Shown here piece by piece: positions 48,783 through 64,000 of a DNA stretch of 64,000 nucleotides (within the stretch, counting starts at the first letter, position 1; each line of letters starts with the position of its first letter). The stretch spans positions 1-64,000 of the forward strand of contig JACPWC010000013.1 in the NCBI GenBank assembly GCA_016197225.1, written 5' to 3'. The stretch is from Chloroflexota bacterium. Its GTDB lineage: Bacteria; Chloroflexota; Anaerolineae; Anaerolineales; VGOW01. Under the pieces are notes generated by a model that worked only from the letters and a program-made list of their open reading frames with translations, had not been told where the DNA came from and searched no databases. The position numbers and the translations under genes are program-made.

Positions 48783-48806
48783 AGACGCCCTCGGAGGCGT
48801 CTTTTT
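48783..48806 (+). terminator. Hairpin with T-run upstream of the oxidase gene
   Basis: AGACGCC/GGCGTCT around CCTCGGA, followed by TTTTC on the plus strand. It would stop transcripts entering from the left. A TATAAT at 48811-48816, 16 bases before the next ATG, is a possible -10 for the oxidase gene. Confidence 0.55.
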
Positions 48807-48831: not shown

Positions 48832-50025
48832 ATGAAGACAAACTACGACACCATCGTCATCGGCTGCGGCGGCATCGGTAGCGCCGCCCTCTACTGGCTC
48901 TCGCGCCGGGCGGGCCAGGACGTGCTGAGCCTGGAGCAGTTCGAGATCGGCCACACCAAAGGCGGCTCGCAGGATCACTCGCGCATCATCCGCCTGACTT
49001 ACGACTCCGACGAGTACACCCGTCTCACACCGCACAGCTACACCGCCTGGGCAACCGTCGAGGACGAATCGGGGCAGAAGATCGTCCACAAAACCGGCGG
49101 CCTGACGATGGCGATCAAGGACGGCCCGCACCAGCACCACATTCACAACTACGCCAGGTCCATGACTCACTGCGACATTCCCTTCGAGCGGTTGAACGCC
49201 GACGAAGTGATGAAGCGTTACCCGCAGTGGACGTTTGATGAAGAGGTGGATGCGCTGTATCAGGCCGACATGGGGCTGGCCGACGCCATTAAGGGCAACG
49301 GCTCACACATCGCCCTGGCCCGCCGCCGCGGGGCGACGATCATTGATCGTTGCCCGGTTACGGCCATCCGCCCCGTAAAAGACGGCGTGGAAGTAGACAC
49401 TGTAAAAGGGACGTTTTCAAGTCGGCGGCTGATCCTCACCGCCGGCGGCTGGACCGACAAGTTGTTGAAGAGCATCGGCCTCAGCTATCGCATCATCGTC
49501 ACTCAGGAGCAAGTCACTTACTACGCCACGCCCAACGTCCGCGAGTTTTCCATTGGCCGCTTTCCGACCTTTATATGGGAAGGCGAGATTCCGGCCTACG
49601 GATTTCCGGTGTACGGCGAAGTGGCGACCAAGCTCGGCATTGACTGCGCCGGGCCGGTGGTGGATGCCGACACCCGCGACTACATTCCAAGCGAGGCGCT
49701 GGAGCACATTTCGGAGTCGTGGCTCAAAAAGTATTGCCCCGGTTTCCTCGGCCCCATTCTTGTGACCAAAACCTGCCAGTACGACATGCCTCGCGACCGC
49801 AACTTCATTCTGGACGCAGTGCCGGAGCATCCGCAGATTTCCGTCTTTGTCGGCGCGGGCCATGCCTACAAGTTCGCCTCACTCGTCGGCAAAATCTTGA
49901 GCGAACTGGCTCTTGACGGGCAAACGCCTCACGACCTCTCGGCTTTCAAAGTCACCCGCCCTGCGATCACCGATCCCGATTACGCAGTTTCATTCCAGCA
50001 CCAGAGCGATTGGGGCGCAATGTAA
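48832..50025 (+). CDS. Monomeric sarcosine / N-methyl-amino-acid oxidase family flavoenzyme
   Basis: The product has 397 residues. The FAD dinucleotide motif is IGCGGIGSAALYWLSRR near residue 10, followed by QDHSRIIRLTYDSDEY, the family substrate-side loop. FVGAGHAYKFASLVGKILSELAL near the end is the typical FAD-contacting C-terminal segment, although GAGHAYKF replaces the common GFSGHGFK. Relatives oxidise N-methyl groups of sarcosine, N-methyltryptophan or related amines to formaldehyde and H2O2. It opens the methylated-compound region; the next gene is a larger demethylating oxidoreductase. Confidence 0.88.
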   Translation: MKTNYDTIVIGCGGIGSAALYWLSRRAGQDVLSLEQFEIGHTKGGSQDHSRIIRLTYDSDEYTRLTPHSYTAWATVEDESGQKIVHKTGGLTMAIKDGPHQHHIHNYARSMTHCDIPFERLNADEVMKRYPQWTFDEEVDALYQADMGLADAIKGNGSHIALARRRGATIIDRCPVTAIRPVKDGVEVDTVKGTFSSRRLILTAGGWTDKLLKSIGLSYRIIVTQEQVTYYATPNVREFSIGRFPTFIWEGEIPAYGFPVYGEVATKLGIDCAGPVVDADTRDYIPSEALEHISESWLKKYCPGFLGPILVTKTCQYDMPRDRNFILDAVPEHPQISVFVGAGHAYKFASLVGKILSELALDGQTPHDLSAFKVTRPAITDPDYAVSFQHQSDWGAM

Positions 50026-50030
50026 ATCTG

Positions 50031-50103
50031 CCAGGGACGCGGACGCGAAGCGCGCGGATAAACGCGGATTTTTATAACAAGGAATCGCGAAAACCCGCGT
50101 CCC
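50031..50103 (+). repeat. Word-repeat hairpin (GGGACGCG / CGCGTCCC)
   Basis: Outer arms GGGACGCG and CGCGTCCC (50034-50041, 50096-50103) enclose the words GGACGCGAAGCGCGCGGATAA and CGCGGATTT. The same CGCGGATT word occurs after the NUDIX gene. Confidence 0.75.
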
Positions 50104-50119
50104 ATATAAGGAGATGGTT

Positions 50120-52591
50120 ATGTCTAAAAAATATCGCGTCGTCGTCATCGGCTCCGGCATTGTCGGGGCCAGCGCCGTTTGGCATTTTGCCAAAGCCGGC
50201 TGGAAAGACATTCTGCTGATTGACAAGGGCGAGCTGTGGGAAAACGACGGCTCGACCTCGCACGCGCCCGGCGGCGTGGTCGCCTTGAGCCATTCCAAAC
50301 TGCTCACTCAGATGGCCGTCTACGGGGCCGACTTAATGGCCTCGCTCAAACCCTGGAGCGAAGACCGGATGACGTACAACGGCGTGGGCGGCCTGGACGT
50401 GGCCACGAGTGAACGGCGCTGGAACGACCTCAAACGCCTGCATGGCGAGTCAAAGTCTTACGGCGTTGAGGCGCATTTGCTCTCGCCCGACGAAGTAAAA
50501 ATCAAATCGCCTCTCGTCAACCCCGAAGAAATCTTCGGCGGCATCTTTATTCCCAAAGGCGCGATTGTGGCCGGGGCGCACGTCTCGGCGGCGCTGGTGC
50601 GTGACGCAGGCGCGATGAGCAACGTGGACGCTTACGGAAATACCGCCGTCACCGATTTTGAAGTCAAGGATGGCCGCATCGTTGCCCTGAGCACGAGCAA
50701 CCCCGAACTGCCCCGCATCGAATGTGAGTCGGCCCTGATCTGCGCCAACATCTGGTCGCCGGCCCTGTGCGAAAAACTCGGCATCCAGATTCCGTTGGTG
50801 GCCTTCGAGCATCAATACGTCATCACCACACCCATGCCCGAACTGGCTCAATATGCCGATCATCGCAAAGAAGACGAAGTCCATCACGTCGGCTTCCGCG
50901 ACGTGGATCACACCATGTACTGCCGCTTCCACTGGGACAGCATCGGCGTGGGCAGTTATTGGCACCGCCCGCACATGGTCTACTCGCGTGACGTGAAGAA
51001 AAGCGCCATGCACCCTTTCACGCCCGAAGACTTTGCCGGGCCGTGGGAACACTTCCAGAAACTCGCCCCAGCCCTGAAAGGCATCAATAGCTTTATCAAA
51101 TCCTTCAACGGCATGTTTGCCTTCTCAGTGGACGGCATGCCCATCATCGGCGAGTCGCACGTCAAGGGCCTGTGGGTCGCCACCGGCTCGTGGCTCACCC
51201 ACGCGCCGGGCGTGGCCAAGTGCGCCGTCGAATGGATGACGAGCGGCGAGACCGAGTGGGACATGCGCCAAGTCCACCTGCACCGCTTCCAGACTCACGT
51301 GACCACCAGGAACTTCATGGATCGCATCAGCCTCAAGAACTATCGTGAGATTTACGAGATCGTCCACCCGCGCCAACCGCTCAGCGAACCGCGCAACGTT
51401 CGCCTCACCCCGTTCTACCCGCGACACAAAGACCTCAAAGCCAGCTTCACCGCCTTTGCCGGGATCGAAGTGCCGAACTGGAATGAAGAGAACACGCGCC
51501 TGCTGGAAAAGTACGAGGACAAGATTCCGGCCCGCTCCGGTTGGGCCGCCGAATACTGGTCACCCGTCGCCGGGGCCGAGCACCTGGCCACCCGCGAGAG
51601 CGCCGGCCTCTTCGACCTCACCGGCCTGGCCCTCATCGAAGTGAGCGGCCCCGGCGCGCTCAAGTTCGTCAACTATCTTTGCAGTAACGACATGGACAAG
51701 CCGGTCGGGCAAGTGATGTACACGCTCTGGCTGACGAAGAATGGTGGTGTCCGCCGTGACCTGGCCGTGGCCCGGCTGGCTGAAGACAAATTCTGGATGA
51801 TGGTTGGCGACGGCACGCGCCCGCAGGATTTGGTCTGGGTGCGGAGCCACGCCCCGACCAACGGCTCGGTCGTCATCACCGATGTCTCCGACGGCTACAC
51901 CGCCCTCGGTCTGTGGGGACCGAACGCCCGGAACATCCTGAGCAAAGTCACCCAGGCCGATCTTTCAAACGACGGCTTCCCCTTCTACTCCTGCCAGTGG
52001 ATCGAAGTCGGCCCGGCCTGGGTGCTGGCCGTTCGCATTTCATACGCGGGCGAACTCGGCTGGGAACTGCACATCCCATTCGATCAGGACTTGCAGGTTT
52101 GGGATGCGATCTGGGAAGCGGGCCGCGAGTTTGATCTGATCTCCACCGGCATGACGGCTTTCGACACCTTGCGACTCGAAAAGGGCTACCGTCTCTGGGG
52201 TGGCGACGTTACCACCGAGTACAACGCTTACGAAGCCGGACTCGGCTGGACGGTGAAGCTGGACAAGCAGGATGACTTTCTGGGCAAGGCGGCGAGCAAG
52301 ACGATCAAAGAGAAGGGTCCTAAGAAGAAGCTGTGTTGCCTGACGCTCGACAACCCGCGCGGCGCGGCCTTTGGCTACGAGCCGATCTTCTCGAACGGCG
52401 CCTGTGTCGGCCACGTGACCAGCGCCAACTATGGCTACAGCGTGAGCAAGTATATTTTGTACGGCTACCTGCCCAAAGAGTACGCGACGGTCGGCGCGAA
52501 GCTGGAGATCGAATACTTCGGCGAACGCCATCCGGTCACCGTCGCTCCCGACCCGCTCTTTGATCCAAAGGGCGAAAGAATGAAAGCGTAG
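50120..52591 (+). CDS. Dimethylglycine/sarcosine dehydrogenase-like FAD protein with GcvT domain
   Basis: The start at 50120 follows AAGGAG at good spacing; product 823 residues. The first half is an FAD oxidoreductase: VVIGSGIVGASAVWHFAKAG and NDGSTSHAPGGVVALSHS, where the His is in the position that carries covalent FAD in dimethylglycine dehydrogenase. The second half (about 430-820) is a GcvT/aminomethyltransferase fold (RSGWAAEYWSPVAGAEHLATRESAGLFDLTG, ISYAGELGWELHIPFDQ) that binds tetrahydrofolate and captures formaldehyde as methylene-THF. Substrate may be dimethylglycine, sarcosine or another N-methyl amine. Confidence 0.9.
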   Translation: MSKKYRVVVIGSGIVGASAVWHFAKAGWKDILLIDKGELWENDGSTSHAPGGVVALSHSKLLTQMAVYGADLMASLKPWSEDRMTYNGVGGLDVATSERRWNDLKRLHGESKSYGVEAHLLSPDEVKIKSPLVNPEEIFGGIFIPKGAIVAGAHVSAALVRDAGAMSNVDAYGNTAVTDFEVKDGRIVALSTSNPELPRIECESALICANIWSPALCEKLGIQIPLVAFEHQYVITTPMPELAQYADHRKEDEVHHVGFRDVDHTMYCRFHWDSIGVGSYWHRPHMVYSRDVKKSAMHPFTPEDFAGPWEHFQKLAPALKGINSFIKSFNGMFAFSVDGMPIIGESHVKGLWVATGSWLTHAPGVAKCAVEWMTSGETEWDMRQVHLHRFQTHVTTRNFMDRISLKNYREIYEIVHPRQPLSEPRNVRLTPFYPRHKDLKASFTAFAGIEVPNWNEENTRLLEKYEDKIPARSGWAAEYWSPVAGAEHLATRESAGLFDLTGLALIEVSGPGALKFVNYLCSNDMDKPVGQVMYTLWLTKNGGVRRDLAVARLAEDKFWMMVGDGTRPQDLVWVRSHAPTNGSVVITDVSDGYTALGLWGPNARNILSKVTQADLSNDGFPFYSCQWIEVGPAWVLAVRISYAGELGWELHIPFDQDLQVWDAIWEAGREFDLISTGMTAFDTLRLEKGYRLWGGDVTTEYNAYEAGLGWTVKLDKQDDFLGKAASKTIKEKGPKKKLCCLTLDNPRGAAFGYEPIFSNGACVGHVTSANYGYSVSKYILYGYLPKEYATVGAKLEIEYFGERHPVTVAPDPLFDPKGERMKA

Positions 52592-52599
52592 ATCAATTC

Positions 52600-52673
52600 A
52601 CCACGAAGGCGCGAAGCCACAAAGATACACCAAGAATTCTTTGTGGAGCTTCGCGCCTTTGTGTCTTTGTGGT
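52600..52673 (+). repeat. Word-repeat hairpin (CACGAAGGCGCGAAG / CTTCGCGCCTTTGTG)
   Basis: Long imperfect arms: GAAGGCGCGAAGCCACAAAG on the left and CTTTGTGGAGCTTCGCGCC on the right. It reaches to within two bases of the mttB1 start codon. Confidence 0.85.
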
Positions 52674-52675
52674 TA

Positions 52676-54193
52676 ATGAGCCGTCGCCGAAGAAACGAAG
52701 CTGTAGACGCGACCACCGCGCCGTTTCGCCAACTGCAAACGCGCTGGCCGCCGCTGGAGGTGCTCTCGCCTGAACACCTGGAGCGTATTCATGACGCTTC
52801 GATGCGGATTCTGGAGAACACGGGTGTTGAATTGCTTGACGCCGAAGCGCTGGATATTTTTGCCAAAGCAGGCGCGAGCGTTGAGGTCGAGACCAAGCGG
52901 GTGAAGATAGATCGCGGCCTGTTGCTGGAGACGATTGCCACCGCCCCACCCTCTTTCACTCTCCACGCTCGCAACCCGCAGAAGTCGGTCGTCATCGGCG
53001 GGAACCACATTGTCTTCTCGCCAGTCGGCGGACAGGCCTACAGCACCAACTTTGACCGAGGACGCCGCCCCGGAACCCTGGCCGATCTCGAAGAACTGGT
53101 CAAGCTCATCCACAGCTTCAACGTTCTGCATCATGGCTCGGACACGCCGGTGGAGCCGACCGACCTGCCCGCCGAGACTCGCCACCTCGACACGCTTTAT
53201 ACGATGCTCCGCCTGACCGACAAGACGGTGATGGGGCCGGCCCGGGGCCGGGTGACGACGACGGATGCCATTGAGATGATGGCCCTGGTCTTCGGCAGGC
53301 GCGAGGCCCTGCTGGAGCGCCCGGCCCTGATCACCATCATCAACGTCAACTCACCGCTGAGGTACGACGACTGGATGCTGGGCGGGCTGATCACCTTCGC
53401 CCGCGCCGGACAGGTGAACGTCATCACGCCCTTCATCGCCGCCGGAGCGATGGGGCCGATCACTCTGGCGGGCGCAATTGCCCAACAGAACGCCGAGGCG
53501 CTGGCCGGTGCCATGCTGACGCAGTTGGTGCGGCCAGGAGCGCCCGTTGTCTACGGCAACTTCACCGTGGACGCTCACATGAGAAGCGGAAGCCCCAGCT
53601 TCGGCACGCCGGAGGGCGCGTGGGCGACGCTGGCCGCCGGACAGTTGGCCCGGCGCTACAAACTGCCCTACCGGAGCAACGGCTCGCTCTCATCCTCCAA
53701 CGCCCCCGACGCCCAGGCGGCTTATGAGACAATGATGTCGCTGTGGCCGGCGATTCTGGCCCATACCAATTTTGTCTATCAGGGCGCGGGCTGGGTGGAG
53801 GGCGGGCTGACGACGAGCTACGAGAAGTTCATCATTGACGTTGAGGCGCTGGCGATGATGGAAGCCTTGCTGACCGGCTACGACGTGAACGACGAGGCCC
53901 TGGCCCTGCCGTTCATTGATCAGGTCGGGCCGGGCGGCCACCACTTTGACACCGAGCACACCCTGTCGCGTTACAGCACCGCCTTCTACAATCCACTGAT
54001 CAGCAGCCGCCAGCAATACGGCAACTGGGTGGAGGCCGGAAGCCTGGACGCGGCGGGGAGGGCGCATTTGAGGTGGAAAGAGGTGTTGAAGAACTATGAG
54101 GAGCCGAAGCTTGACGAGACGATTGACGAGGCCTTGCGCGACTTCATGACGCGTCGCAAGCAAGAGCAGGCGGAGAAGGGGTTGACGGCGTGA
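52676..54193 (+). CDS. MttB family (trimethylamine/betaine) methyltransferase, paralogue 1, without pyrrolysine
   Basis: From the ATG at 52676 the product has 505 residues. The TIM-barrel MttB pattern is clear: PLEVLSPEHLERIHDASMRILENTGV at the start, HHGSDTPVEPTDLPAETRH, TIINVNSPLRYDDWMLGGLITFARAGQVNVITPFI, and GPGGHHFDTEHTLSRY near the end. The frame reads through without any amber codon, so it belongs to the non-pyrrolysine group, whose studied members methylate corrinoid proteins from glycine betaine, carnitine and similar quaternary amines. It is the most divergent of the three paralogues here. No corrinoid protein gene is nearby. Confidence 0.9.
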   Translation: MSRRRRNEAVDATTAPFRQLQTRWPPLEVLSPEHLERIHDASMRILENTGVELLDAEALDIFAKAGASVEVETKRVKIDRGLLLETIATAPPSFTLHARNPQKSVVIGGNHIVFSPVGGQAYSTNFDRGRRPGTLADLEELVKLIHSFNVLHHGSDTPVEPTDLPAETRHLDTLYTMLRLTDKTVMGPARGRVTTTDAIEMMALVFGRREALLERPALITIINVNSPLRYDDWMLGGLITFARAGQVNVITPFIAAGAMGPITLAGAIAQQNAEALAGAMLTQLVRPGAPVVYGNFTVDAHMRSGSPSFGTPEGAWATLAAGQLARRYKLPYRSNGSLSSSNAPDAQAAYETMMSLWPAILAHTNFVYQGAGWVEGGLTTSYEKFIIDVEALAMMEALLTGYDVNDEALALPFIDQVGPGGHHFDTEHTLSRYSTAFYNPLISSRQQYGNWVEAGSLDAAGRAHLRWKEVLKNYEEPKLDETIDEALRDFMTRRKQEQAEKGLTA

Positions 54194-54732
54194 AGATTAA
54201 TAGCTCAATCTTTCAACGGATGCCTTCGGCGAAACGGACAAACGGATATAAGGCCGGCATCCGCTTATCCGCTTTTGAATCCGTTGAAAGCCAACCAACC
54301 GCCAGCACCCCTTTCCAGCGGTCGGCTACGTGGGTTGCTCTCCTGCTCGCCTCCGGGCTGGTTCTGTCGTGCATCGTCCTGGCTTCGACGCTTCTGGTTT
54401 CAAAGTCTTCGCCGTCGGCCTATCCGCGTTGGAGTGTCAGCAACGTTCGCCCGCCCGTCAGCCACATAAGTCTGAACGGGTCGAGCCTGGAGTGGGTGAT
54501 GGTCAACAGAACTAATGCCACTTCGTCGGACTCGCCGACGCAGGTTCTTCAGTGGTTCAAGGATCAGGGCTGGATGAGCAACTTTAGATACGACGATTCG
54601 GTGATACGTCAAAGTAATCGGCGATTTGGGATTGTAGCCATTTCAACCGTGGAAGAAGTTTTTGTCGGGAGCCGTTCGCCGGGCGCTTACGTTACGTCTT
54701 CTACTCAAATGGTAATTGTTGTTGGACGTTGA
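54190..54732 (+). CDS. Small protein with one membrane segment, N-terminus written by a repeat
   Basis: The GTG start overlaps the mttB1 stop by four bases; product 180 residues. Residues about 7-34 are encoded by a perfect inverted repeat. A membrane segment follows (WVALLLASGLVLSCIVLASTLLV) and then an outer domain (ISLNGSSLEWVMVNRTNATSSDSPTQVLQWFKDQGW). No family recognised. A later start is possible; no ribosome binding site is seen inside. Confidence 0.55.
   Translation: MKINSSIFQRMPSAKRTNGYKAGIRLSAFESVESQPTASTPFQRSATWVALLLASGLVLSCIVLASTLLVSKSSPSAYPRWSVSNVRPPVSHISLNGSSLEWVMVNRTNATSSDSPTQVLQWFKDQGWMSNFRYDDSVIRQSNRRFGIVAISTVEEVFVGSRSPGAYVTSSTQMVIVVGR
54210..54290 (+). repeat. Word-repeat hairpin (CAACGGAT) inside a coding start
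   Basis: CTTTCAACGGAT (54210-54221) and ATCCGTTGAAAG (54279-54290) are perfectly inverted; ACGGAC, ACGGAT, ATCCGC words lie between. It shares its word with the element at 58264. Confidence 0.8.
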
Positions 54733-54752
54733 ACAGAAACGAGAATACAAGA

Positions 54753-55712
54753 ATGCTCATCGAAATCACCTCCCCCGCTATTTTGCCATTAGGCATCGTT
54801 CACGCCGAGGGCCGACCCGGCCTGCTCGGCCTTACCCTGCAACATCCGCCAGTTCAATTGTTCGCCCAATCATTTGACGGCCTCAAGATCACCGGCGCGC
54901 GGGCGGACGAGGCCCGCAAGCACGCTGAGCGTTTTTATGCTCATCACAAACTTGAGCCGCACGCTGAGGTGGAAATTGAGTTGGCGATCCCGAACTTTGT
55001 CGGCCTCGGCTCCAGCGCCATGCTGGGCCTGAGCCTGGCTCAGGCGCTGGCCTGGATTCACAAGCTGAACTTTGAAGACAAGGCCGGGCTGGCGCAACTC
55101 GTCGGACTGGAAAGGCGGCACGCGCTCGAAGCCCGCGCTTTCGAGCAGGGCGGCTTGTTACTGGTGGCCGAAAATGGCGATGTGATTCGTCGCGGCGTGA
55201 TTCAACATTCCAATGAACAGGCCTGGGCATTTGTCTTCGTCTTCCCCAAAACGCCGCCGGGCACGCAACCGGCGCTGGAAGCCGAACGCTTGCAGGCGCT
55301 TTGGGAGGTCGGGCAACACCTGAACGCAAACGCAACCCTCAATGCCAGTCTGTGGTCAGCGGTTGAGCGTGATGATATTGCGGCTTTCGCTTCGGCGCTG
55401 ATGACGATCCAGGAACTCAACCGGGCGGCGCTGGCCGGGGCCGGGAAAACAGTGACGGCTTCCCCTGAGGATCAAGCCCTTCTAAATATCATGCGCCAAC
55501 ACGGCGCGCTTGCTTATGGCAACAATCCAGCCGGCACCGGCTTGTTTGGCCTGATCCAGGGCGACACTGCCAGCATCAAACTACGCAAGCATTTGCAGGA
55601 TCACATAGGCTTCTTCGGCGGCACAGTCATGGCTTCCATTGCCGACAACGGCGGGGCGCGGCACGTCGTGAAGGACGACACACTCTATGCGCGCTCACTG
55701 AGGGATACGTGA
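54753..55712 (+). CDS. GHMP-fold protein resembling beta-ribofuranosylaminobenzene 5'-phosphate synthase
   Basis: From the ATG at 54753 the product has 319 residues. SPAILPLGIVHAEGRPGLLGLTLQHP is the typical N-terminus of the beta-RFAP synthase group, IPNFVGLGSSAMLGLSLAQALAW the GHMP phosphate loop near residue 85, and GNNPAGTGLFGLIQ the third motif. Archaeal relatives make the first committed intermediate of tetrahydromethanopterin from PRPP and 4-hydroxybenzoate/4-aminobenzoate. Bacterial members of the group are not all proven. In a methyl-transfer neighbourhood a pterin- or sugar-related role is possible. It ends with a four-base overlap with the next gene. Confidence 0.75.
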   Translation: MLIEITSPAILPLGIVHAEGRPGLLGLTLQHPPVQLFAQSFDGLKITGARADEARKHAERFYAHHKLEPHAEVEIELAIPNFVGLGSSAMLGLSLAQALAWIHKLNFEDKAGLAQLVGLERRHALEARAFEQGGLLLVAENGDVIRRGVIQHSNEQAWAFVFVFPKTPPGTQPALEAERLQALWEVGQHLNANATLNASLWSAVERDDIAAFASALMTIQELNRAALAGAGKTVTASPEDQALLNIMRQHGALAYGNNPAGTGLFGLIQGDTASIKLRKHLQDHIGFFGGTVMASIADNGGARHVVKDDTLYARSLRDT

Positions 55713-56626
55713 CGGACGTTCCGGCTGAGGTTCCCAAAGCGGCAAACATCCACTGGACAGGCTGGGCCATCGCCCTCGGTTCGAGCGTCGCCTTCAGTAT
55801 TTCCACGCCCATTGCCAAAGCGGCCATTCTGCTGGGCATGGCACCAGCCACCCTGCTGGTTTTGCGACTCCTCATTACCACGCTCTTGCTCTTCAGCACC
55901 ACCCTGCTCACCGAGCCGGTCCGGCTTCGGATTGACCGCAGGCATTTAATGTTTTGCATTCTGGCCGGCCTGGCGAATGGTGTCGGGATGCTGGCCTACT
56001 TTTCATCGCTCACTCGTCTCGACTCCTCCATCGCGGCCATGATCTTTTCCATCAGCCCGCTGGTGGTGCTGGGCCTGCTGGCCTTGCGCGGCGAGCGGGT
56101 CACGCCCCGCAACGGCGCGCGGCTGGCGCTGGGGCTGGGCGGCGTATACTTGCTCATCGGCCCCGGCGGCCAGGTAGACTTGTCCGGCGTGGCGCTGGTG
56201 ATGGTATCGGTGCTGGCTGTCCCGTTTCAACTGGTCATCATGCAATGGTATTTGCAGGCGCACGATCCGCGAACAGTGACGCTTTACATGGTGACGACAA
56301 TGATGGCAGTGGCCATCGGCTGGTGGCTGGCTCAAGGCGCGGAGTGGCATGATCCGGGTTGGCGCGGCTGGTTGCTTGTTCTGACCCTGGCCTTCTTCAG
56401 CACCTATCTGGCCCGGCTTCTGCTCTTCCTCTCGGTGCGCAAGATCGGCGGCGGGCAAACCGGCCTGCTGGCCCCGTTGGAGACTCTGCTCACCGTGATC
56501 TGGTCAACGATCTTTTTGAACGAGCGACTCACGACAGTGCAATGGCTGGGCGGTCTTCTGATCCTGATCAGCGCCGGGTTAGCCGTCAACGTGCTGGGGC
56601 GGGCGCAGCGGAGAAAACAGACCTGA
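55709..56626 (+). CDS. EamA/DMT family transporter
   Basis: The GTG start overlaps the previous stop (GTGA); product 305 residues. Ten hydrophobic segments in two EamA halves: AIALGSSVAFSISTPIAKAAILLGMAPATLLVLRLLITTLLL opens the first, VALVMVSVLAVPFQLVIMQWYL begins the second, and GLLAPLETLLTVIWSTIFLNERLTTVQWLGGLLILISAGL closes it with the conserved PLETLLTV...NERL motif. Such carriers export metabolites or amino acids. The coupled start ties it to the GHMP gene. Confidence 0.88.
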   Translation: MTDVPAEVPKAANIHWTGWAIALGSSVAFSISTPIAKAAILLGMAPATLLVLRLLITTLLLFSTTLLTEPVRLRIDRRHLMFCILAGLANGVGMLAYFSSLTRLDSSIAAMIFSISPLVVLGLLALRGERVTPRNGARLALGLGGVYLLIGPGGQVDLSGVALVMVSVLAVPFQLVIMQWYLQAHDPRTVTLYMVTTMMAVAIGWWLAQGAEWHDPGWRGWLLVLTLAFFSTYLARLLLFLSVRKIGGGQTGLLAPLETLLTVIWSTIFLNERLTTVQWLGGLLILISAGLAVNVLGRAQRRKQT

Positions 56627-56696
56627 CACGAAGATACCAGGACTCAAAGGCACCAAGCTGTTCCCTTTGTGGCTTTGTGTCTTCGTGCCTTTGTGG
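56627..56696 (+). repeat. Word-repeat hairpin (CACGAAG / CTTTGTGG)
   Basis: CACGAAG and CAAAGGCACCAAG words pair with CTTTGTGGCTTTGTGTCTTCGTG. It starts one base after the EamA stop and uses the same word family as 52600. Confidence 0.8.
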
Positions 56697-56719
56697 TAAA
56701 GACTACGGAGCAAATCTAA

Positions 56720-58255
56720 ATGGGAACTACACGTTCTGAGAGGCGGGCCGCCCGGCGGCAACAGCGGTCGGAAATTCCGCTGGCTAAACTTCCCTTCCAG
56801 GAATTACGCAACCCTTTCCCGCCGCTGGAAATTGTGCCGCCTGAAGGCATCGAAAAGATTCACAACGCCTCGTTGGACTTGCTCGAAAATACCGGCATCT
56901 GCGTGATGGACGAGGAAGCCCTGAGCCTGTTTGAGCACGCGGGCGCAAGAGTCGATCACCAGAGCCAAATGGTGTGGCTGGATCGCGGCTGGCTGATGGA
57001 GATCGTCGCCAGAGCGCCGGCGGAGTTCACCTGGCGCGCCCGCAACCTGCAACGCAACGTCCGCATCGGCGGGAACAACATTGCCCTGGCCGCTAACGGC
57101 GGCATGGCTTACGCCTCGAATCTCGACGTGGGGCGGCGGCGCGGCACTTTGCAAGACTACGAGGCCTTCCTCAAGCTCGGCCAGATGTGCAACGTCATTC
57201 ATATCAACGCCGGTGAACTGGTCGCCATTCAAGACATTCCGTCCTCGGCCCGTCACCTGCGCCGCCTGCTGGCCAACTTTCTTTACACCGACAAAGCCAT
57301 TCTCGAAGCGGCGCACGGGCGCGTCATCCCGCTGGACTGTTTTGAAATGGCCAAGATGGTCTTCGGCACGCTCGACGGCGACCCCGTGTTTGGCGGCGTC
57401 ATCAACGTCAGCAGTCCCTTGCGCTACGACAATCGCATGGCCGGCGGCCTCATCAGCTACGCCCGGGCCGGGCAAGTTGCCATTGTCACCCCGTTCATCT
57501 CAGCCGGAGCGATGGGGCCGATCACGGTCGCCGGCGCGCTCACCCAGCAAAACGCGGAGGCGTTGACGGGCATCGCCCTGACCCAGATCGTCAAACCCGG
57601 CGTGCCTGTCATCTACGGCAACTTCACCACGCCCACTGACATGAAGAGCGGCGCGCCCGCCTTTGGCACGCCCGAAGCCGCCTGGGCCACGCTGGCGAGC
57701 GCCCAACTCGCCCGCCGCTACAAGTTGCCGTTTCGCGGCAGTGGCAGTCTCAACAACTCCAAAGTGCCGGACGCGCAAGCAACGTGGGAAAGCCACTGGT
57801 CGCTGTGGCCGGCGCTGTTCGCCCACACCAACTTTGTCCTGCACTCGGTTGGCTGGCTCGAAGGCGGCCTCACTGCCTCATACGAAAAGTGGATCATTGA
57901 CGCCGAGACGCTGGCGATGTTCTTCCACTTCTTCAAAGGCTTCGAGATCAGCGACGAGACGCTGGCTTTGGACATGATCGCCGAAGTGGGGCCGGGCGGC
58001 CACCACTTTGGCACGCCGCACACCCAGGCCCGCTTCGCCACTGAGTTCTATCAGTCCACCCTTGCCGACCGGCTTGGCTACGAAACCTGGCACGCGGCGG
58101 GCGAGTGGGACGCCACCAAACGCGCCCACGCCATCTGGAAAGAAATGCTGGCTCACTACGAACCGCCGCCCCTCGACCCGGTTCTCCAGCAGGCCCTCAC
58201 CGAATTTGTTGCCCGGCGCGAGAAGGAACTGGAAGGAAAAAATCTCTACGATTGA
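56720..58255 (+). CDS. MttB family methyltransferase, paralogue 2, without pyrrolysine
   Basis: The product has 511 residues with no internal amber codon. It starts with a basic segment (SERRAARRQQRSE) and then PLEIVPPEGIEKIHNASLDLLENTGI. Shared family parts are GNNIALAANGGMAYASNLDVGRRRGTLQDYEAFLKLGQMCNVIH, INVSSPLRYDNRMAGGLISYARAGQVAIVTPFISAGAMGP, GSGSLNNSKVPDAQA and EVGPGGHHFGTPHTQARFATEFYQSTLADRLGY. It is much closer to paralogue 3 than to paralogue 1. Expected reaction: methyl transfer from a quaternary amine to a corrinoid protein. Confidence 0.9.
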   Translation: MGTTRSERRAARRQQRSEIPLAKLPFQELRNPFPPLEIVPPEGIEKIHNASLDLLENTGICVMDEEALSLFEHAGARVDHQSQMVWLDRGWLMEIVARAPAEFTWRARNLQRNVRIGGNNIALAANGGMAYASNLDVGRRRGTLQDYEAFLKLGQMCNVIHINAGELVAIQDIPSSARHLRRLLANFLYTDKAILEAAHGRVIPLDCFEMAKMVFGTLDGDPVFGGVINVSSPLRYDNRMAGGLISYARAGQVAIVTPFISAGAMGPITVAGALTQQNAEALTGIALTQIVKPGVPVIYGNFTTPTDMKSGAPAFGTPEAAWATLASAQLARRYKLPFRGSGSLNNSKVPDAQATWESHWSLWPALFAHTNFVLHSVGWLEGGLTASYEKWIIDAETLAMFFHFFKGFEISDETLALDMIAEVGPGGHHFGTPHTQARFATEFYQSTLADRLGYETWHAAGEWDATKRAHAIWKEMLAHYEPPPLDPVLQQALTEFVARREKELEGKNLYD

Positions 58256-58263
58256 ACCTGTTC

Positions 58264-58331
58264 GTCAACGGATTTACCGGATTAAACGGATTTGCTTAAA
58301 TCAATCCGCTAAATCCGTTCAATCCGTTGAC
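58264..58331 (+). repeat. Word-repeat hairpin (CAACGGATT / AATCCGTTG)
   Basis: GTCAACGGATT (58264-58274) and AATCCGTTGAC (58321-58331) are perfectly inverted; ACCGGATTAAACGGATTT and AAATCCG words lie inside. Confidence 0.85.
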
Positions 58332-58350
58332 GGCTCTTGCCTGACCACTC

Positions 58351-59547
58351 ATGGCTTACAACTTCGATCAACTCATCAACCGCCGCCCGACCAATAGCAA
58401 CAAGTGGAATTTTTACCCTGAAGACATTTTGCCGATGTGGGTTGCCGATATGGATTTTGTGTCGCCCCATCCCGTCATCAAAGCCTTGCGCCAAAAAGTT
58501 GAGCACGGCATCTTCGGCTACGAACTGCCGTCCGCTGAACTTATCGAAACCGTGTGTGACCGCATGGCCCGGCTCTACGGTTGGGCCGTCACTCCGCAAC
58601 AAGTCATCGCCCTGCCCGGCCTGGTCACCGGCGTCAACGTCGCTTGTCGGGCCGTCGGCGGGCCGGGCGACGGCGTGCTCATCCAGACACCGGTCTACCA
58701 TCCCTTCCTCAGCGCGCCCAAAAACAATGGCCGCCTCAGGCAGGATGCGCCGCTCACCTATGTCTCCGACGGCGATCATGCTTTTCATTACGAGATTGAC
58801 TACGACAGCTTTGAAACTGCCATTCAGGATAACACCCGCCTGTTCCTGTTTTGCAACCCGCACAACCCTACCGGCCAGGTTTATACGCCCGAACAATTGA
58901 CCCGGCTGGCCGAAATCTGTCTGCGCCATAATCTCGTCATCTGCTCCGACGAAATTCACGGCGAGCTTGTGCTGGGCAAGTCCACGCACACCCCGCTGGC
59001 AACACTCTCCCCCGAAATCGCCGACCGCACCATCACCCTCATCGCCCCCAGCAAGACGTTCAACATTGCCGGCCTCGGTTGTAGTTTTGCCATCGTCACC
59101 AACCCGGAACTGCGCCAGCAAGTGCAAATCGCCGCCGAGGGCATCGTGCCGCTCGTCAACGCCCTGGGCCTGGCCGCCGGGCTGGCCGCTTTCCGCGACG
59201 ACCCGGAGGTGAATGACTGGCTGACGGCCCTGAAGCAATACCTGACGGCCAACCGCGATGTCTGGGTTGAGACTATCGCCCGCGAACTGCCCATGCTCAA
59301 GACCGCCGCGCCCGACGCCACCTATCTGGCCTGGCTCGATTGCCGGGGCGCGAACCTTGATCTTGATCCGTACGAATTCTTTTTGCAGAAGGCCAGTATC
59401 GGGTTCAGCGACGGCGCGATCTTTGGCGCAAACGGCCAGGGCTTCGTGCGCGTGAATTTTGGTTGCCCGCGCCCGCGATTGATGCAGGCATTGGAACAGA
59501 TGAAAGCCGCACTGACAAACGACGGACGGACGACGAAGGACGGGTGA
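58351..59547 (+). CDS. MalY/PatB-type PLP-dependent C-S lyase or aminotransferase
   Basis: The product has 398 residues. LPMWVADMDFVSPHPVIKAL is the MalY/PatB N-terminus, NPHNPTGQVYTPEQL binds the ring and ICSDEIHGELVLGKSTHTPLA is the family marker. APSKTFNIAGLGCSFAIV holds the PLP lysine near residue 235. Members are cystathionine beta-lyases and aminotransferases. In this neighbourhood it could release methanethiol, ammonia and pyruvate from sulphur amino acids. The last eight codons lie in a repeat element. Confidence 0.9.
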   Translation: MAYNFDQLINRRPTNSNKWNFYPEDILPMWVADMDFVSPHPVIKALRQKVEHGIFGYELPSAELIETVCDRMARLYGWAVTPQQVIALPGLVTGVNVACRAVGGPGDGVLIQTPVYHPFLSAPKNNGRLRQDAPLTYVSDGDHAFHYEIDYDSFETAIQDNTRLFLFCNPHNPTGQVYTPEQLTRLAEICLRHNLVICSDEIHGELVLGKSTHTPLATLSPEIADRTITLIAPSKTFNIAGLGCSFAIVTNPELRQQVQIAAEGIVPLVNALGLAAGLAAFRDDPEVNDWLTALKQYLTANRDVWVETIARELPMLKTAAPDATYLAWLDCRGANLDLDPYEFFLQKASIGFSDGAIFGANGQGFVRVNFGCPRPRLMQALEQMKAALTNDGRTTKDG

Positions 59548-59593
59548 CGAACGCTTCGCGCTTTCGTCTCCCGTCTTTCGTCCTTCGTCACCC
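59516..59593 (+). repeat. Word-repeat hairpin (GACGAAGGAC / GTCCTTCGTC)
   Basis: GACGAAGGAC (59532-59541) and GTCCTTCGTC (59580-59589) are perfectly inverted, with GACGGACGGACGACG and TTTCGTCTCCCGTCTTTCG words around. The left half encodes the last residues NDGRTTKDG of the upstream protein. Confidence 0.8.
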
Positions 59594-59596
59594 AAC

Positions 59597-60823
59597 ATGG
59601 CCCGCAAAGACAAACGCATCTTCGGACAACACAACGCGCTGTTTGAACCCAATCTCGACTTCAGCCGCCTGCGCCACGAGCGTCTGGCAAAAGTCCAGCG
59701 CGAGATGGCCAAACGCGACATCGGCGCGCTGATCCTGACCGACATCATGAACATTCGCTATGCCACCGGCGTCAGCGTCATGCCGCTGTGGACGGCGGTC
59801 AATCTGGCACATTACGTGCTGGTTCCGGTCAACGGCGACCCCATCATTTACGAATACAACCAGTCGCGATTCATCGCCCGGCAATTCTGGTCGGACGTGC
59901 GCCCGGCGCATTACTGGCAACACCGCTTCGCCGATCAATATGCGCCCGACCTTTCCAACAGATGGGCTTCGGAGTTCAAAGACGTGCTTCAGGAAAAAGG
60001 GCTGGCCGGTTCCAAAGTGGGCGTAGACAATCTGGACTACTACGGTTTCACCGCCTTGCAAAACCAGGGCTTTCATCTAACGGACGCCGACGAGCCAATG
60101 GAAGCCGCCCGCGTCGTTAAATTGCCAGACGAGATCGAGCTTCTGCGTCAGTCCGCCGCTGTGTGCGAATCCGCTCTTTACGACGTGGAACAGGCCATCC
60201 GCCCCGGCATCAGCGAGAATGAACTGCTGGCGATCTTCTGGCATGGCATGTTGGCCCTGGGCGGCGAACACTGCTTCACCCGCCTCATCGCTTCCGGCCA
60301 CAAGACCAATCCCTGGTTCCACGAAGCCGGGAGCAAACTGGTGCGCCCCGGCGACCTGGTGGGCATTGACACCGACATGATCGGCCCGCACGGCTACGTG
60401 TGCGACATCTCGCGCACCTTCCTTTGTGGCGATGTCGCCACCGCAACCCAAAAAGAGGCTTACAAAGTCGCCTACGATTTCATTCAAGGCACAATTGAGT
60501 TGTGCCAGCCCGGCGTCGCCTTTTCCGATTTTGCCAGGCGCATCCCGACCGTCCCGGAAGCTTATAAAGCGCAACGCTACTCGGTCATCCTGCACGGCAT
60601 CGGCACCGACGACGAGCCGCCTTTCATTCCGTTCATTGATGATCTGAGGGGCGAAACCTTTGTGGACGGCGAGTTTCAAGAGAACACCGTCTTGAGCGTT
60701 GAGTTCTACGCCGGAAAAGTGGGCGAGCAGGACGGCGTAAAATTAGAGGAAGAAATCTGGCTTACCAAAGACGGGCCGGTGGTGATTTCGTTGTATCCTT
60801 ATGAGGAGAAGTTGTTGAGGTGA
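59597..60823 (+). CDS. M24-fold metalloenzyme resembling DMSP lyase DddP
   Basis: The product has 408 residues: an N-terminal creatinase-like domain (about 1-170, with NIRYATGVSVMPLW) and a C-terminal pita-bread domain. Metal ligands are Asp258, Asp260 and Asp270 (IDTDMIGPHGYVCDISRTF), His333 (ILHGIGTDDEPP), Glu369 (VEFYAG) and Glu384 (KLEEEIWLT). Ordinary Xaa-Pro peptidases have only the Asp pair eleven apart; D-x-D then Asp ten later, with equal spacing of the other ligands, is the DddP pattern. ASGHKTNPWFHEAG also resembles DddP. It may cleave DMSP or a related onium compound; another M24 function cannot be excluded. Confidence 0.82.
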   Translation: MARKDKRIFGQHNALFEPNLDFSRLRHERLAKVQREMAKRDIGALILTDIMNIRYATGVSVMPLWTAVNLAHYVLVPVNGDPIIYEYNQSRFIARQFWSDVRPAHYWQHRFADQYAPDLSNRWASEFKDVLQEKGLAGSKVGVDNLDYYGFTALQNQGFHLTDADEPMEAARVVKLPDEIELLRQSAAVCESALYDVEQAIRPGISENELLAIFWHGMLALGGEHCFTRLIASGHKTNPWFHEAGSKLVRPGDLVGIDTDMIGPHGYVCDISRTFLCGDVATATQKEAYKVAYDFIQGTIELCQPGVAFSDFARRIPTVPEAYKAQRYSVILHGIGTDDEPPFIPFIDDLRGETFVDGEFQENTVLSVEFYAGKVGEQDGVKLEEEIWLTKDGPVVISLYPYEEKLLR

Positions 60824-60824
60824 C

Positions 60825-62372
60825 ATGACTCTCGATTCTCAACGCTCCGAACGCCGCGCCGCCCGCCGCCAGCAACGCTCGGCCCTGCCCCTGCTCAAAC
60901 TCCCTTTTCGCCAACTGCGCAACCCTCTGCCGCCGCTGGAGATCATTTCGCCTGAACAAATCGAAAAACTGCATCAAGCCTCGATGCACATTCTCGAAAA
61001 CGTCGGCCTGGACTTTTTGGACAAAGAGACGCTGGACGTTTGGGAGAAGGCCGGGGCAAAGGTGGATGCTTCTGCACGTCACGTTTGGCTGGATCGCGGG
61101 CTGGTGATGGAGGCCGTCGGCAAAGCGCCCGCGTCGTTCACCTGGCGCTCGCGCAACCCGGAAAAGAACGTCTTTGTCGGCGAGAACGCGATCACCTTTG
61201 CGCCTAACGGCGGCGTGGCCTACTCATCCAACTTCGAGACGGGACGGCGGCGCGGCACAATGGCTGATTACGAAAACTTCCTCAAGCTGGGGCAGATGTG
61301 CAACATTTTGCACTACGCTGGCGAGCAACTGGTCGCGCCGCAGGAGGTGCCGTCATCCATTCGCCACCTCAGACGGCTGTTCGGCGCGCTGACCCTCACC
61401 GACAAGGCCGTGATGGAAGCGGCGCACGGGCGCGAGATCACGGCTGACGCATTAAAAATGGTGAGGCTGGTATTCGGTGATTTAATCAGTGACGGCGGCC
61501 CCGTTATCGGCGGCATCATCAACGTCAACAGCCCGCTTCGTTACGATGATCGCATGTTAGGCGGCCTCATCACTTACGCCCGCACCGGGCAAGTCACCAT
61601 CATCACCCCCTTCATCCTGGCCGGGGCGATGAGTCCGATCAGCATGGCCTCAGCGCTGGCCCAACAAAACGCGGAAGCCCTGGCGGGCGTCGCCTTGACG
61701 CAGTTGATCAGGCCGGGCGCGCCCGTCATCTATGGCGGCTTCACCACGAATGTGGACATGAAGAGCGGAAGCCCGGCCTTTGGCACGCCGGAGGGCGCGT
61801 GGGCGATGTCGGTCGGGGCGCAGTTGGCGCGGCGCTACAAGTTGCCGTATCGCGGCAGTGGCAGTCTCAACAATTCCAAAACGCCGGACGCACAGGCGGC
61901 TTATGAGACAATGTGGACGATCTGGCCGGCGATTCTGTCGCACACCAACTTCGTCATGCACTCGGTCGGCTGGCTGGAGGGCGGACTGACCGCCTCTTAC
62001 GAGAAGTTCATTATAGACGCCGAAAACCTGGCGATGTTCTATCACTTCCTCAACGGCTTTGAGATCAGCGACGAGACGCTGGCCCTGGACATGATCGCCG
62101 AAGTGGAGCCGGGCGGCCACCACTTCGGGACTCCACACACCCAGGCCCGCTTCGCCACCGAGTTCTATCAGTCCACCCTCGCCGACCGGCTGGGCTACGA
62201 AACGTGGCATGCGGCGGGCGCATGGGACACGGCCAAGCGAGCACACGCCGTTTGGAAAGAGATGCTGGCGCAGTACGAGCCACCGTCAATGGATGCCGGC
62301 GTGAAAGAAGCGTTGAGTGAGTATGTAGCGAAAAGGGAGAAGGAGTTGGAGGGGAGGAGTCTTTATGATTGA
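60825..62372 (+). CDS. MttB family methyltransferase, paralogue 3, without pyrrolysine
   Basis: The product has 515 residues without an amber codon and begins one base after the preceding stop. It shares long identical stretches with paralogue 2: GSGSLNNSK, HTNFVMHSVGWLEGGLTASYEK, GFEISDETLALDMIAEV and FGTPHTQARFATEFYQSTL. Paralogue 3 has EVEPGGHHFG where the other two have GPGGHH. Its stop overlaps the start of the core-MetE gene by eight bases, which links methyl removal from the substrate to a zinc methyltransferase. Confidence 0.9.
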   Translation: MTLDSQRSERRAARRQQRSALPLLKLPFRQLRNPLPPLEIISPEQIEKLHQASMHILENVGLDFLDKETLDVWEKAGAKVDASARHVWLDRGLVMEAVGKAPASFTWRSRNPEKNVFVGENAITFAPNGGVAYSSNFETGRRRGTMADYENFLKLGQMCNILHYAGEQLVAPQEVPSSIRHLRRLFGALTLTDKAVMEAAHGREITADALKMVRLVFGDLISDGGPVIGGIINVNSPLRYDDRMLGGLITYARTGQVTIITPFILAGAMSPISMASALAQQNAEALAGVALTQLIRPGAPVIYGGFTTNVDMKSGSPAFGTPEGAWAMSVGAQLARRYKLPYRGSGSLNNSKTPDAQAAYETMWTIWPAILSHTNFVMHSVGWLEGGLTASYEKFIIDAENLAMFYHFLNGFEISDETLALDMIAEVEPGGHHFGTPHTQARFATEFYQSTLADRLGYETWHAAGAWDTAKRAHAVWKEMLAQYEPPSMDAGVKEALSEYVAKREKELEGRSLYD

Positions 62373-63477
62373 AGCCCACACCGATGTCGTCGGCAGTTTG
62401 CTTCGCCCGCCGGAATTGTTGCAGGCGCGAGAGGATGTGGCGGCGGGCCGAATTTCGCAAGCCGAGTTCAAGCGCGTCGAAGATTGGGCGGTTGACGAAG
62501 CTATCGCGCTTCAAGAAGAGGCGGGGCTGGAGGTGATCACGGACGGCGAACAGAGGCGGCTGTCCTTTCAGAGCCAACTCCTGGAGTCGGTGGAGGGCGT
62601 TGGCGAGTGGGACATTGACGCTTTCTTGTGGGGCGACTGGAAGGGCATTGAGGGCGTGGTCGAAGACAAGAACACGCAACGCCCCAAAGAGCTGGGTGTG
62701 GTGAGCAAACTACGCCGCAAGCGCCACTTGTCTTCTGAAGAGTTTGTGTACCTGCGACGGCGCACGACGCGCATTCCCAAAATTACGCTTACCAGCCCCA
62801 GCCTGTACGCCAATTTGTGGTCGCCAGAAAAGTCGAAAGCCGCCTACCCGACCCTCGACAGCTTCCTGGCTGACGTGGTGGATATTATGCGCGACGAAGT
62901 CGCCGAGTTGGTCCGGCTCGGCGCGACCTACATTCAGATTGACGCGCCGCACTACCCGCTGTTGATTGACCCGAAGACTCGCGCCTTCTACGAAAGCCAG
63001 GGCTGGACATTGGAGCGATGGCTGGCGCGCGGCATTGAGATGGACAACGCCCTCATCGGCGATTTCCGCGAAGTGACGTTCGCCTTTCACCTGTGCCGGG
63101 GCAATCAGCACAGCCGCTGGCTGGTCGAGGGCGGCTACGATCTGATCGCCAAGCCGATCTTTCAAAACATTCGCGCCCAACGGTTGATGCTTGAGTACGA
63201 CGACGCGCGCTCCGGCACATTCGACCCGCTCCAAGAAGTGCCCGACGACAAGACGGTAGTGCTGGGGCTGGTGACAACCAAAAGCCCGCGCCAGGAAACG
63301 GTTGAAGAGTTGGCGGCGCGCATCAAAGACGCGGCGCGCTTCGTGCCGCTGGAACGGCTCGGCCTCAGCCCGCAGTGCGGCTTCGCCACCTCCATCGGCG
63401 GCAACGCCCTCACCCTTGAAGATGAGAAGCGCAAGCTGAAGACAATTTGCGAGACGGCGAAAGTAGTATGGGGATAG
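62365..63477 (+). CDS. Core-MetE type (cobalamin-independent methionine synthase C-terminal) zinc methyltransferase
   Basis: The 370-residue product equals only the catalytic C-terminal barrel of MetE and lacks the N-terminal folate-binding half. Zinc ligands are visible: His242 and Cys244 in FHLCRGNQHS, Glu277 in LMLEYDDARSG and Cys338 in SPQCGFATSIGGN. RSLLRPPELL-like HTDVVGSLLRPPELLQA starts the chain. Short core-MetE proteins can use methyl-corrinoid donors instead of methyl-THF. Coupled to an MttB gene, this enzyme may pass the methyl group from a corrinoid protein to homocysteine or another thiol. Confidence 0.87.
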   Translation: MIEAHTDVVGSLLRPPELLQAREDVAAGRISQAEFKRVEDWAVDEAIALQEEAGLEVITDGEQRRLSFQSQLLESVEGVGEWDIDAFLWGDWKGIEGVVEDKNTQRPKELGVVSKLRRKRHLSSEEFVYLRRRTTRIPKITLTSPSLYANLWSPEKSKAAYPTLDSFLADVVDIMRDEVAELVRLGATYIQIDAPHYPLLIDPKTRAFYESQGWTLERWLARGIEMDNALIGDFREVTFAFHLCRGNQHSRWLVEGGYDLIAKPIFQNIRAQRLMLEYDDARSGTFDPLQEVPDDKTVVLGLVTTKSPRQETVEELAARIKDAARFVPLERLGLSPQCGFATSIGGNALTLEDEKRKLKTICETAKVVWG

Positions 63478-63481
63478 AGAA

Positions 63482-63541
63482 AACCGCAAAGACGCAAAGG
63501 GCGCAAAGATTTTTCTTCGCGTTCTTCGTGCCTTTGCGGTT
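63482..63541 (+). repeat. Word-repeat hairpin (AACCGCAAAG / CTTTGCGGTT)
   Basis: Perfect ten-base ends (63482-63491, 63532-63541) enclose the direct words ACGCAAAGG, GCGCAAAG and the inverse TTCGCGTTCTTCGTGC. Same family as 22222 and 32015. Confidence 0.85.
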
Positions 63542-63557
63542 CAATTGGGAGGCTACT

Positions 63558-64000
63558 ATGGTTCTCTGGCTGACCGAAAAAGATGTTCGTTCATTGCTCA
63601 CGATGGAAATGGCGCTGGAAGCGGTCGAAGAATCGTTTCACGGGCTGGCCGAGGGCACGGCGACCAACATGCCGCGCCGCCGGATCAGTCACGAGCGCAA
63701 CACCTTCCACCTCATGTTCAGCGCCGTCGGCTCGCGCAATGTCATCGGCGTCAAGGCCTACAACACCTACGGCGGGCCGGTGGATTTTTTGATCCCGCTT
63801 TACAGCACTGAGACCGGGCGGCTGATTGCCTTGATTGAGGGCGACTGGCTGGGGCGAGTCCGAACCGGGGCCGCCTCCGGGGTGGCAAGCAAATACCTGG
63901 CCCGGCCCGGCTCGAAGACGCTGAGTCTCTTTGGCACTGGCAGTCAGGCCCAAACGCAAATGCTGGCTGTGTGCGCCGCGCTGGGCACGATCGAGCGCGT
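63558..64000 (+). CDS. Ornithine cyclodeaminase / mu-crystallin family protein, 3' end outside the window
   Basis: GGAGG precedes the ATG at 63558; 147 residues are visible before the edge. LTEKDVRSLLTMEMALEAVEESF is the family N-terminus, GVKAYNTYGGP the substrate-binding Lys region, and LIEGDWLGRVRTGAASGVASKYLARPGSKTLSLFGTGSQA runs into the NAD-binding Rossmann loop. Members include ornithine cyclodeaminase, alanine dehydrogenase and ketimine reductases; the specificity cannot be told from this part. It follows the core-MetE gene after a repeat hairpin. Confidence 0.9.
   Translation, partial: MVLWLTEKDVRSLLTMEMALEAVEESFHGLAEGTATNMPRRRISHERNTFHLMFSAVGSRNVIGVKAYNTYGGPVDFLIPLYSTETGRLIALIEGDWLGRVRTGAASGVASKYLARPGSKTLSLFGTGSQAQTQMLAVCAALGTIER

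Follow-up and report, generated by a model that had tools for sequence, protein, structure and literature searches.

The closest described counterpart of the locus presented here is an aerobic pathway published in 2025 for Ruegeria pomeroyi, in which MtgB, MtgC, MtgD, MtgE, RamA, DUF1638 and MetF2 are proposed to carry out glycine betaine demethylation and methionine synthesis, and in which mtgC and mtgD mutants lose both functions (PMC12478193). The Ruegeria genes are scattered, genomes of this kind carry up to seven MttB paralogues, and the pathway has been described in Alpha-, Gamma- and Deltaproteobacteria (PMC12478193). Chloroflexota are not mentioned in the main text of that paper, and the titles and abstracts of the literature on MttB in Chloroflexota yielded no description of this pathway. 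Single parts of the locus also have described relatives: the glycine betaine methyltransferase MtgB (DhMG) of the anaerobe Desulfitobacterium hafniense (2qne, 9yce), the DMSP lyase DddP (4rzy, 4b28; PMC4108388), and the core methionine synthases MesA to MesD, which consist of a single MetE catalytic domain (PMC7857596, PMC7005905).

The window, by which we mean the whole 64,000-nt stretch analysed here, lies on contig C13 (JACPWC010000013.1) of Chloroflexota bacterium GCA_016197225.1, a draft genome of 4.8 Mb in 126 contigs that is 98% complete, and it holds three of the six MttB genes in that genome. The initial annotation had read its right-hand end as an undescribed pathway for methylated amines or onium compounds, and the genes it named are all present where it placed them, on the plus strand, each a long ORF that matches its family strongly. 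The features are as follows.

45197..47311, plus strand: fused oligopeptide-type ABC transporter ATPase (DppDF-like), an ORF, upstream anchor of the locus
48784..48806, plus strand: GC-rich hairpin and T run, read directly from the sequence
48832..50025, plus strand: N-methyl amino acid oxidase of the MSOX/MTOX family (NF008425, 290 bits)
50114..52591, plus strand: dimethylglycine oxidase/dehydrogenase-like FAD and GcvT protein, DMGDH/DMGO-like (DAO, FAO_M, GCV_T, GCV_T_C)
52676..54193 (ORF opens at 52643), plus strand: MttB1, non-pyrrolysine MtgB-like methyltransferase (PF06253, 649 bits)
54190..54732, plus strand: hypothetical protein of 180 aa (ORF)
54729..55712, plus strand: GHMP-superfamily protein (Pfam GHMP_kinases_N, weak, 26 bits)
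55709..56626, plus strand: EamA-family transporter (PF00892)
56720..58255, plus strand: MttB2, non-pyrrolysine MtgB-like methyltransferase (PF06253, 606 bits)
58351..59547, plus strand: PatB/MalY-type C-S lyase (TIGR04350, 446 bits)
59597..60823, plus strand: DddP-like M24 metalloenzyme (NF043017, 258 bits)
60825..62372, plus strand: MttB3, non-pyrrolysine MtgB-like methyltransferase (PF06253, 641 bits)
62365..63477, plus strand: short single-domain MetE-like zinc methyltransferase (PF01717, PRK06520/PRK06233)
63558..64000, continuing to C13:64535, plus strand: ornithine-cyclodeaminase (OCD)/mu-crystallin-like protein (ORF)

From the MTOX/MSOX-like oxidase to the short MetE the genes follow one another in this order at distances of -8 to +95 bp, and the hypothetical protein, for which a Pfam search returned no match, overlaps each of its neighbours by 4 bp. 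Judged from its sequence, the hairpin with its T run is likely to be a terminator that parts the upstream genes from the cluster. A protein 79% identical to the DppDF-like ATPase flanks the equivalent cluster in a genome of the same genus, G004, and the ATPase is also found beside short MetE or GHMP genes in G484, G519 and G461; we have set the upstream DppDF and CBS genes aside as pathway parts because elsewhere in the Chloroflexota the two turn up together next to different genes. Downstream, the cluster runs on beyond the window end at 64000 with the OCD-like gene and then a SufS-like gene that ends at C13:65952, past which come a convergent phosphoesterase and a cobalamin riboswitch at 67289-67521. 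Behind the riboswitch, roughly 4 kb downstream of the short MetE, lie BtuF, BtuC, BtuD and PduO (L007, 7289-11204). A short repeat close to CTTCGTGTCTTTGTGG precedes MttB1, MttB2 and the OCD-like gene (window positions 52657, 56681 and 63524), three matches where 0.06 would be expected. Since the first codons of the ORF that opens at 52643 fall within this repeat, 52676 is probably the true start of MttB1.

The cluster opens with the two demethylating flavoenzymes that the initial annotation had recognized. The DMGDH-like protein matches dimethylglycine oxidase 1pj5 over its full length with 630 bits, and has kept the Asp whose counterpart in the paired entry 3gsi is Ala. The MTOX/MSOX-like protein exceeds the NF008425 cut-off (290 bits against 257) and scores best as an N-methyltryptophan oxidase; aligned to monomeric sarcosine oxidase, in what we take to be the numbering and residue roles of that enzyme, it keeps the equivalents of the covalent-flavin Cys315 and of Lys265 and Lys348 and does not keep that of His269. 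On the gene complement, a series from betaine through dimethylglycine and sarcosine to glycine is plausible.

The three methyltransferases are, as had been proposed, of the non-pyrrolysine kind: aligned with the MttB structure 7xcl, each carries Leu opposite the residue printed X (pyrrolysine), and none of the genes has an internal stop or in-frame amber codon. They are MttB-family proteins close to MtgB. MttB1 scores 400 bits against the glycine betaine methyltransferase (2qne/9yce) and 174 against MttB, and the scores of MttB1 and MttB3 are 400-415 bits against the solved glycine betaine methyltransferase and its homologue 4yyc and 150-174 against MttB. MttB1 and MttB3 align with the D. hafniense enzyme over about 475 residues at 400-413 bits, a likeness at the level of the overall alignment, and that enzyme, from an anaerobe, likewise has Leu at the pyrrolysine position. 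MttB1 belongs to one clade and MttB2/3 to another; MttB3 groups weakly with MttB2, to which it is 70% identical. A plain triplication within this genome is rejected, as MttB1 and MttB2 each have their own ortholog in G004. The remaining paralogues lie elsewhere. On contig C55 (L008, 11262-18273) a molybdopterin oxidoreductase gene comes after MttB4 and MttB5, and on contig C102 (L010, 9289-16706) MttB6 has two amine oxidases, a GcvT-like protein and a regulator of the IclR type as neighbours, a candidate for another demethylation cluster.

Separate clades would also suit a division of labour, in which the quaternary amine differs from one of the three MttB proteins to the next, with candidates such as proline betaine, carnitine or gamma-butyrobetaine, and the DMGDH- and MSOX-like enzymes act on other N-methyl products. 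We regard this as a serious possibility that falls somewhat short of an even chance. It has a precedent in Eubacterium, where MttB paralogues take different substrates and share one corrinoid protein, an arrangement also proposed for those marine genomes that encode multiple MttB proteins (PMC12478193), and the N-methyltryptophan oxidase score and missing His269 equivalent of the MTOX-like enzyme point the same way; the full-length match of the DMGDH-like enzyme to dimethylglycine oxidase, and the adjacency of two oxidases that fit the series from betaine to glycine, argue against it.

The initial annotation had further held that a corrinoid protein and its activase are absent, whereas known MttB systems keep both beside the methyltransferase. 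The absence proves to be local, as a search of the genome found two sets elsewhere, and adjacency is no rule, the Ruegeria pomeroyi parts being unlinked (PMC12478193). The claim of an undescribed pathway had rested mainly on the missing corrinoid system, for which this genome does have genes outside the window. One of the two sets is a minus-strand operon on contig C74 that has no MttB gene.

C74:10407-12473, minus strand: RamA activase
C74:9695-10390, minus strand: MtgC corrinoid protein (B12-binding_2 and B12-binding domains, DIHDIG at residue 111)
C74:8742-9629, minus strand: MtgE homocysteine methyltransferase domain (zinc cysteines)
C74:8080-8724, minus strand: DUF1638
C74:7292-7768, minus strand: DUF5981
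C74:6318-7304, minus strand: MetF
C74:5294-6448, minus strand: MtgD pterin-binding methyltransferase

MtgC carries the DxHxxG motif in the form DIHDIG. MtgE resembles the MetH domain, at 186 bits, more than BHMT, at 74 bits, and its zinc-site cysteines are retained. With MtgC, MtgD and MetF, an MtgE with its zinc cysteines, and RamA with DUF1638, the operon holds, in one piece, the genes of an MtgBCDE-type system other than MttB. Its MtgC is 69% identical to an MtgC-like protein from an alphaproteobacterial locus, L063, in which MttB, DUF1638, MtgC, a DddP-like gene, MtgE, RamA and another MttB stand together. Pterin-binding proteins are encoded on C64, C69 and C74; that on C64, the strongest match, is probably the dihydropteroate synthase. 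Contig C69 (L024, 5301-14030) bears the second corrinoid, pterin-binding and RamA set, with URO-D-like proteins and a RamA match split over two frames; it is possibly a separate methyltransferase system.

Overall, we believe it likely that the cluster supplies the substrate-specific half of an aerobic, corrinoid-dependent demethylation pathway of the MtgBCDE type whose genes are split between two loci. From gene content, conserved residues, synteny and co-occurrence we infer the reactions, their substrates and a direct interaction between MttB and MtgC. In this reading at least one of the MttB proteins would take a methyl group from a betaine, glycine betaine being the likeliest, and load it onto the MtgC encoded on C74, after which MtgD would pass the methyl to tetrahydrofolate for oxidation via MetF, or MtgE would pass it to homocysteine, yielding methionine, with RamA (and DUF1638) recharging the corrinoid. 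The dimethylglycine left over would be converted to sarcosine and methylene-THF by the DMGDH-like enzyme of the window, and the sarcosine to glycine by the MTOX/MSOX-like enzyme, so that these two genes fit the next two steps.

The comparison with Ruegeria speaks for this reading. The two systems share MttB-family proteins, MtgC, MtgD, MtgE, RamA, DUF1638 and MetF, with unlinked parts, as well as genes for dimethylglycine and sarcosine oxidation; the genome search found neither MetH nor a tandem MetE, and MetH is missing from about 70% of marine MtgBCD genomes too (PMC12478193). The conserved MtgC motif and MtgE cysteines, the preference of MttB1 and MttB3 for the glycine betaine methyltransferase and 4yyc over MttB, and the BtuFCD and PduO genes behind a cobalamin riboswitch are all in keeping with it. 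The systems differ in host, Chloroflexota rather than Proteobacteria, in the gathering of the core into one operon with DUF5981, and in the additional GHMP, EamA, PatB, M24 and short MetE genes of the MttB cluster. Against the MtgBCDE-type reading, the C74 core and the window lie on separate contigs in an assembly of draft quality, the C69 set could be the partner instead, and the roles of the GHMP, EamA, M24 and short MetE proteins are left unexplained.

The same pathway receives support from relatives. Raw counts over 201 genomes belonging to this order, in which shared descent is ignored, place an MtgC-like protein in 96 of the 103 with MttB and in 25 of the 98 without. When MttB is restricted to its close subfamily (at least 530 bits), a close MtgC is found in 13 of 18 such genomes as against 17 of 183 others; five of the 18 go without it, which counts against the reading, and three of these five are listed as at most 85% complete. 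Close MtgC proteins (67% identity or more) occur in 30 of the 201 genomes, and most of the neighbourhoods read also have core genes. Physical linkage is seen in G010, where a single stretch holds MetF, MttB, DMGDH, MTOX, DMGDH, RamA, MtgC, MtgE, MtgD, DUF1638, OCD and MttB, in G115, where MttB, MtgC and MtgE are adjacent, and in G004, where MttB4 adjoins RamA and MtgC. Since MttB adjoins the core in relatives, the C74 operon is a corrinoid core of the type with which MttB proteins work. At the same time, the core-linked MttB in relatives is mostly of the MttB4 type (on C55 here) and not MttB1-3, so that MttB1-3 may use other substrates.

Conservation of the cluster in related genomes, which the initial annotation had named as a check, was found in G004, and confinement to one genome is rejected. 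The order there is DppDF, MTOX (74% identity), DMGDH (85%), MttB1 (77%), GHMP (42%), EamA (60%), MttB2 (80%) and PatB (62%, locus L038). The G004 cluster is without M24, MttB3 and the short MetE, and the right-hand part of the cluster is sporadic among relatives.

It is in this right-hand part that MttB is joined to a core-MetE protein, as had been noted before: the MttB3 and short MetE genes overlap by 8 bp. The short MetE, the sole PF01717 protein in the genome, is a single MetE C-terminal domain that has the zinc residues H242, C244, E277 and C338 and the homocysteine residues S11, E62 and D193, all by motif, with E277 further from H242 than in MetE. It shares these features with the Mes families, and we place it in none of those described; the comparison covered MesD (3rpd), a weak match at 34 bits, and the closest PDB entry is 1ypx (163 bits), a YxjG-like type. 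The abstracts read on YxjG/YxjH give no function. The gene occurs in four of 201 genomes of the order and 10 of 396 of the class. Close relatives (72-75% identity) are encoded in G006, next to DMGDH and a class III aminotransferase, and in G519, at 3 kb from an MttB. In the latter (L173, 10341-10430) a remnant of 30 residues, which matches the C-terminus of M24 at 70% identity, stands directly upstream of the short MetE and suggests that an M24 and MetE pair has been lost.

The overlap, the zinc and homocysteine residues, the lack of any other PF01717 protein and these neighbourhoods invite the proposal that MttB3 and the short MetE form a direct shunt from a methylated corrinoid protein to homocysteine, bypassing folate, with PatB upstream supplying the homocysteine. 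Such a shunt would supplement the MtgBCDE-type model and not replace it, and we consider it rather unlikely: the corrinoid operon already contains a MetH-type homocysteine domain in MtgE, the short MetE is sporadic and missing from the same-genus cluster, and in Phaeobacter a core-MetE homologue fails to rescue the loss of mtgCDE (PMC12478193). The C-S lyase itself, like the EamA transporter (PF00892), was correctly identified from the start; PatB reaches 446 bits against a TIGR04350 cut-off of 340 and possibly supplies homocysteine from cystathionine, and EamA keeps its position in G004.

A DddP-like enzyme near MttB had likewise been predicted, and the M24 gene, directly before MttB3, bears this out. 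The protein retains equivalents of all six DddP metal ligands (Asp295, Asp297, Asp307, His371, Glu406 and Glu421) and of both proposed catalytic residues (Tyr366 and Asp377), as given in PMC4108388. It scores 206 bits against the nearest solved DddP and 258 against NF043017, where the curated cut-off is 600, and stands in a methylated-amine gene context; because of this score we do not assign it to DddP, although the resemblance stands. The retained residues give some substance to a sulphonium reading, in which M24 is a DMSP lyase and M24, MttB3 and the short MetE act on a compound such as DMSP, MttB3 being a sulphonium demethylase, and in L063 the DddP-like gene is flanked by MtgC and MtgE and shares the locus with MttB. 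We think this improbable, given the shortfall against the NCBIfam cut-off, the identical residue set in four further DddP-like proteins whose function is not known, and the rarity of comparable M24 genes, which occur in 10 of 396 genomes of the class, with no MttB beside M24 in the six Chloroflexota neighbourhoods read. Equally remote in our estimation is a folate-free shunt in which MttB3 loads the corrinoid from an onium compound, the short MetE, as an undescribed core-MetE family, passes the methyl to homocysteine, and a lyase-like M24 acts on the parent or demethylated compound.

The GHMP protein was described initially as like beta-RFAP synthase. Its AF2 model (pLDDT 84) gives ForT as the top Foldseek match, with homoserine kinase close behind; both RFAP synthase cut-offs are missed (40 against 328 bits, 24 against 113.5), and on these scores membership is not assigned while the resemblance stands. 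The gene recurs near MttB in G004 and directly beside MttB in G398, G521 and G416.

Of the original proposal, then, methyl removal from methylated amines is retained as the function that the genes suggest, and novelty of the basic pathway is not: this is most likely a pathway of a published type, in a phylum for which we found no earlier description of it. What is unusual is MttB3 overlapping a short MetE placed in no described Mes family, a DddP-like enzyme with the DddP catalytic residues and a recurrent GHMP protein, and the accessory combination of MttB3, short MetE, M24 and GHMP is not described in the literature searched. Regardless of the specific roles of these accessory proteins, the MtgBCDE-type system would extend the pathway and its demand for B12 beyond the Proteobacteria, with a close MtgC in 30 of 201 genomes of one Chloroflexota order, and the short MetE of this cluster offers a concrete case on the role of such enzymes in a genome where no MetH was found.
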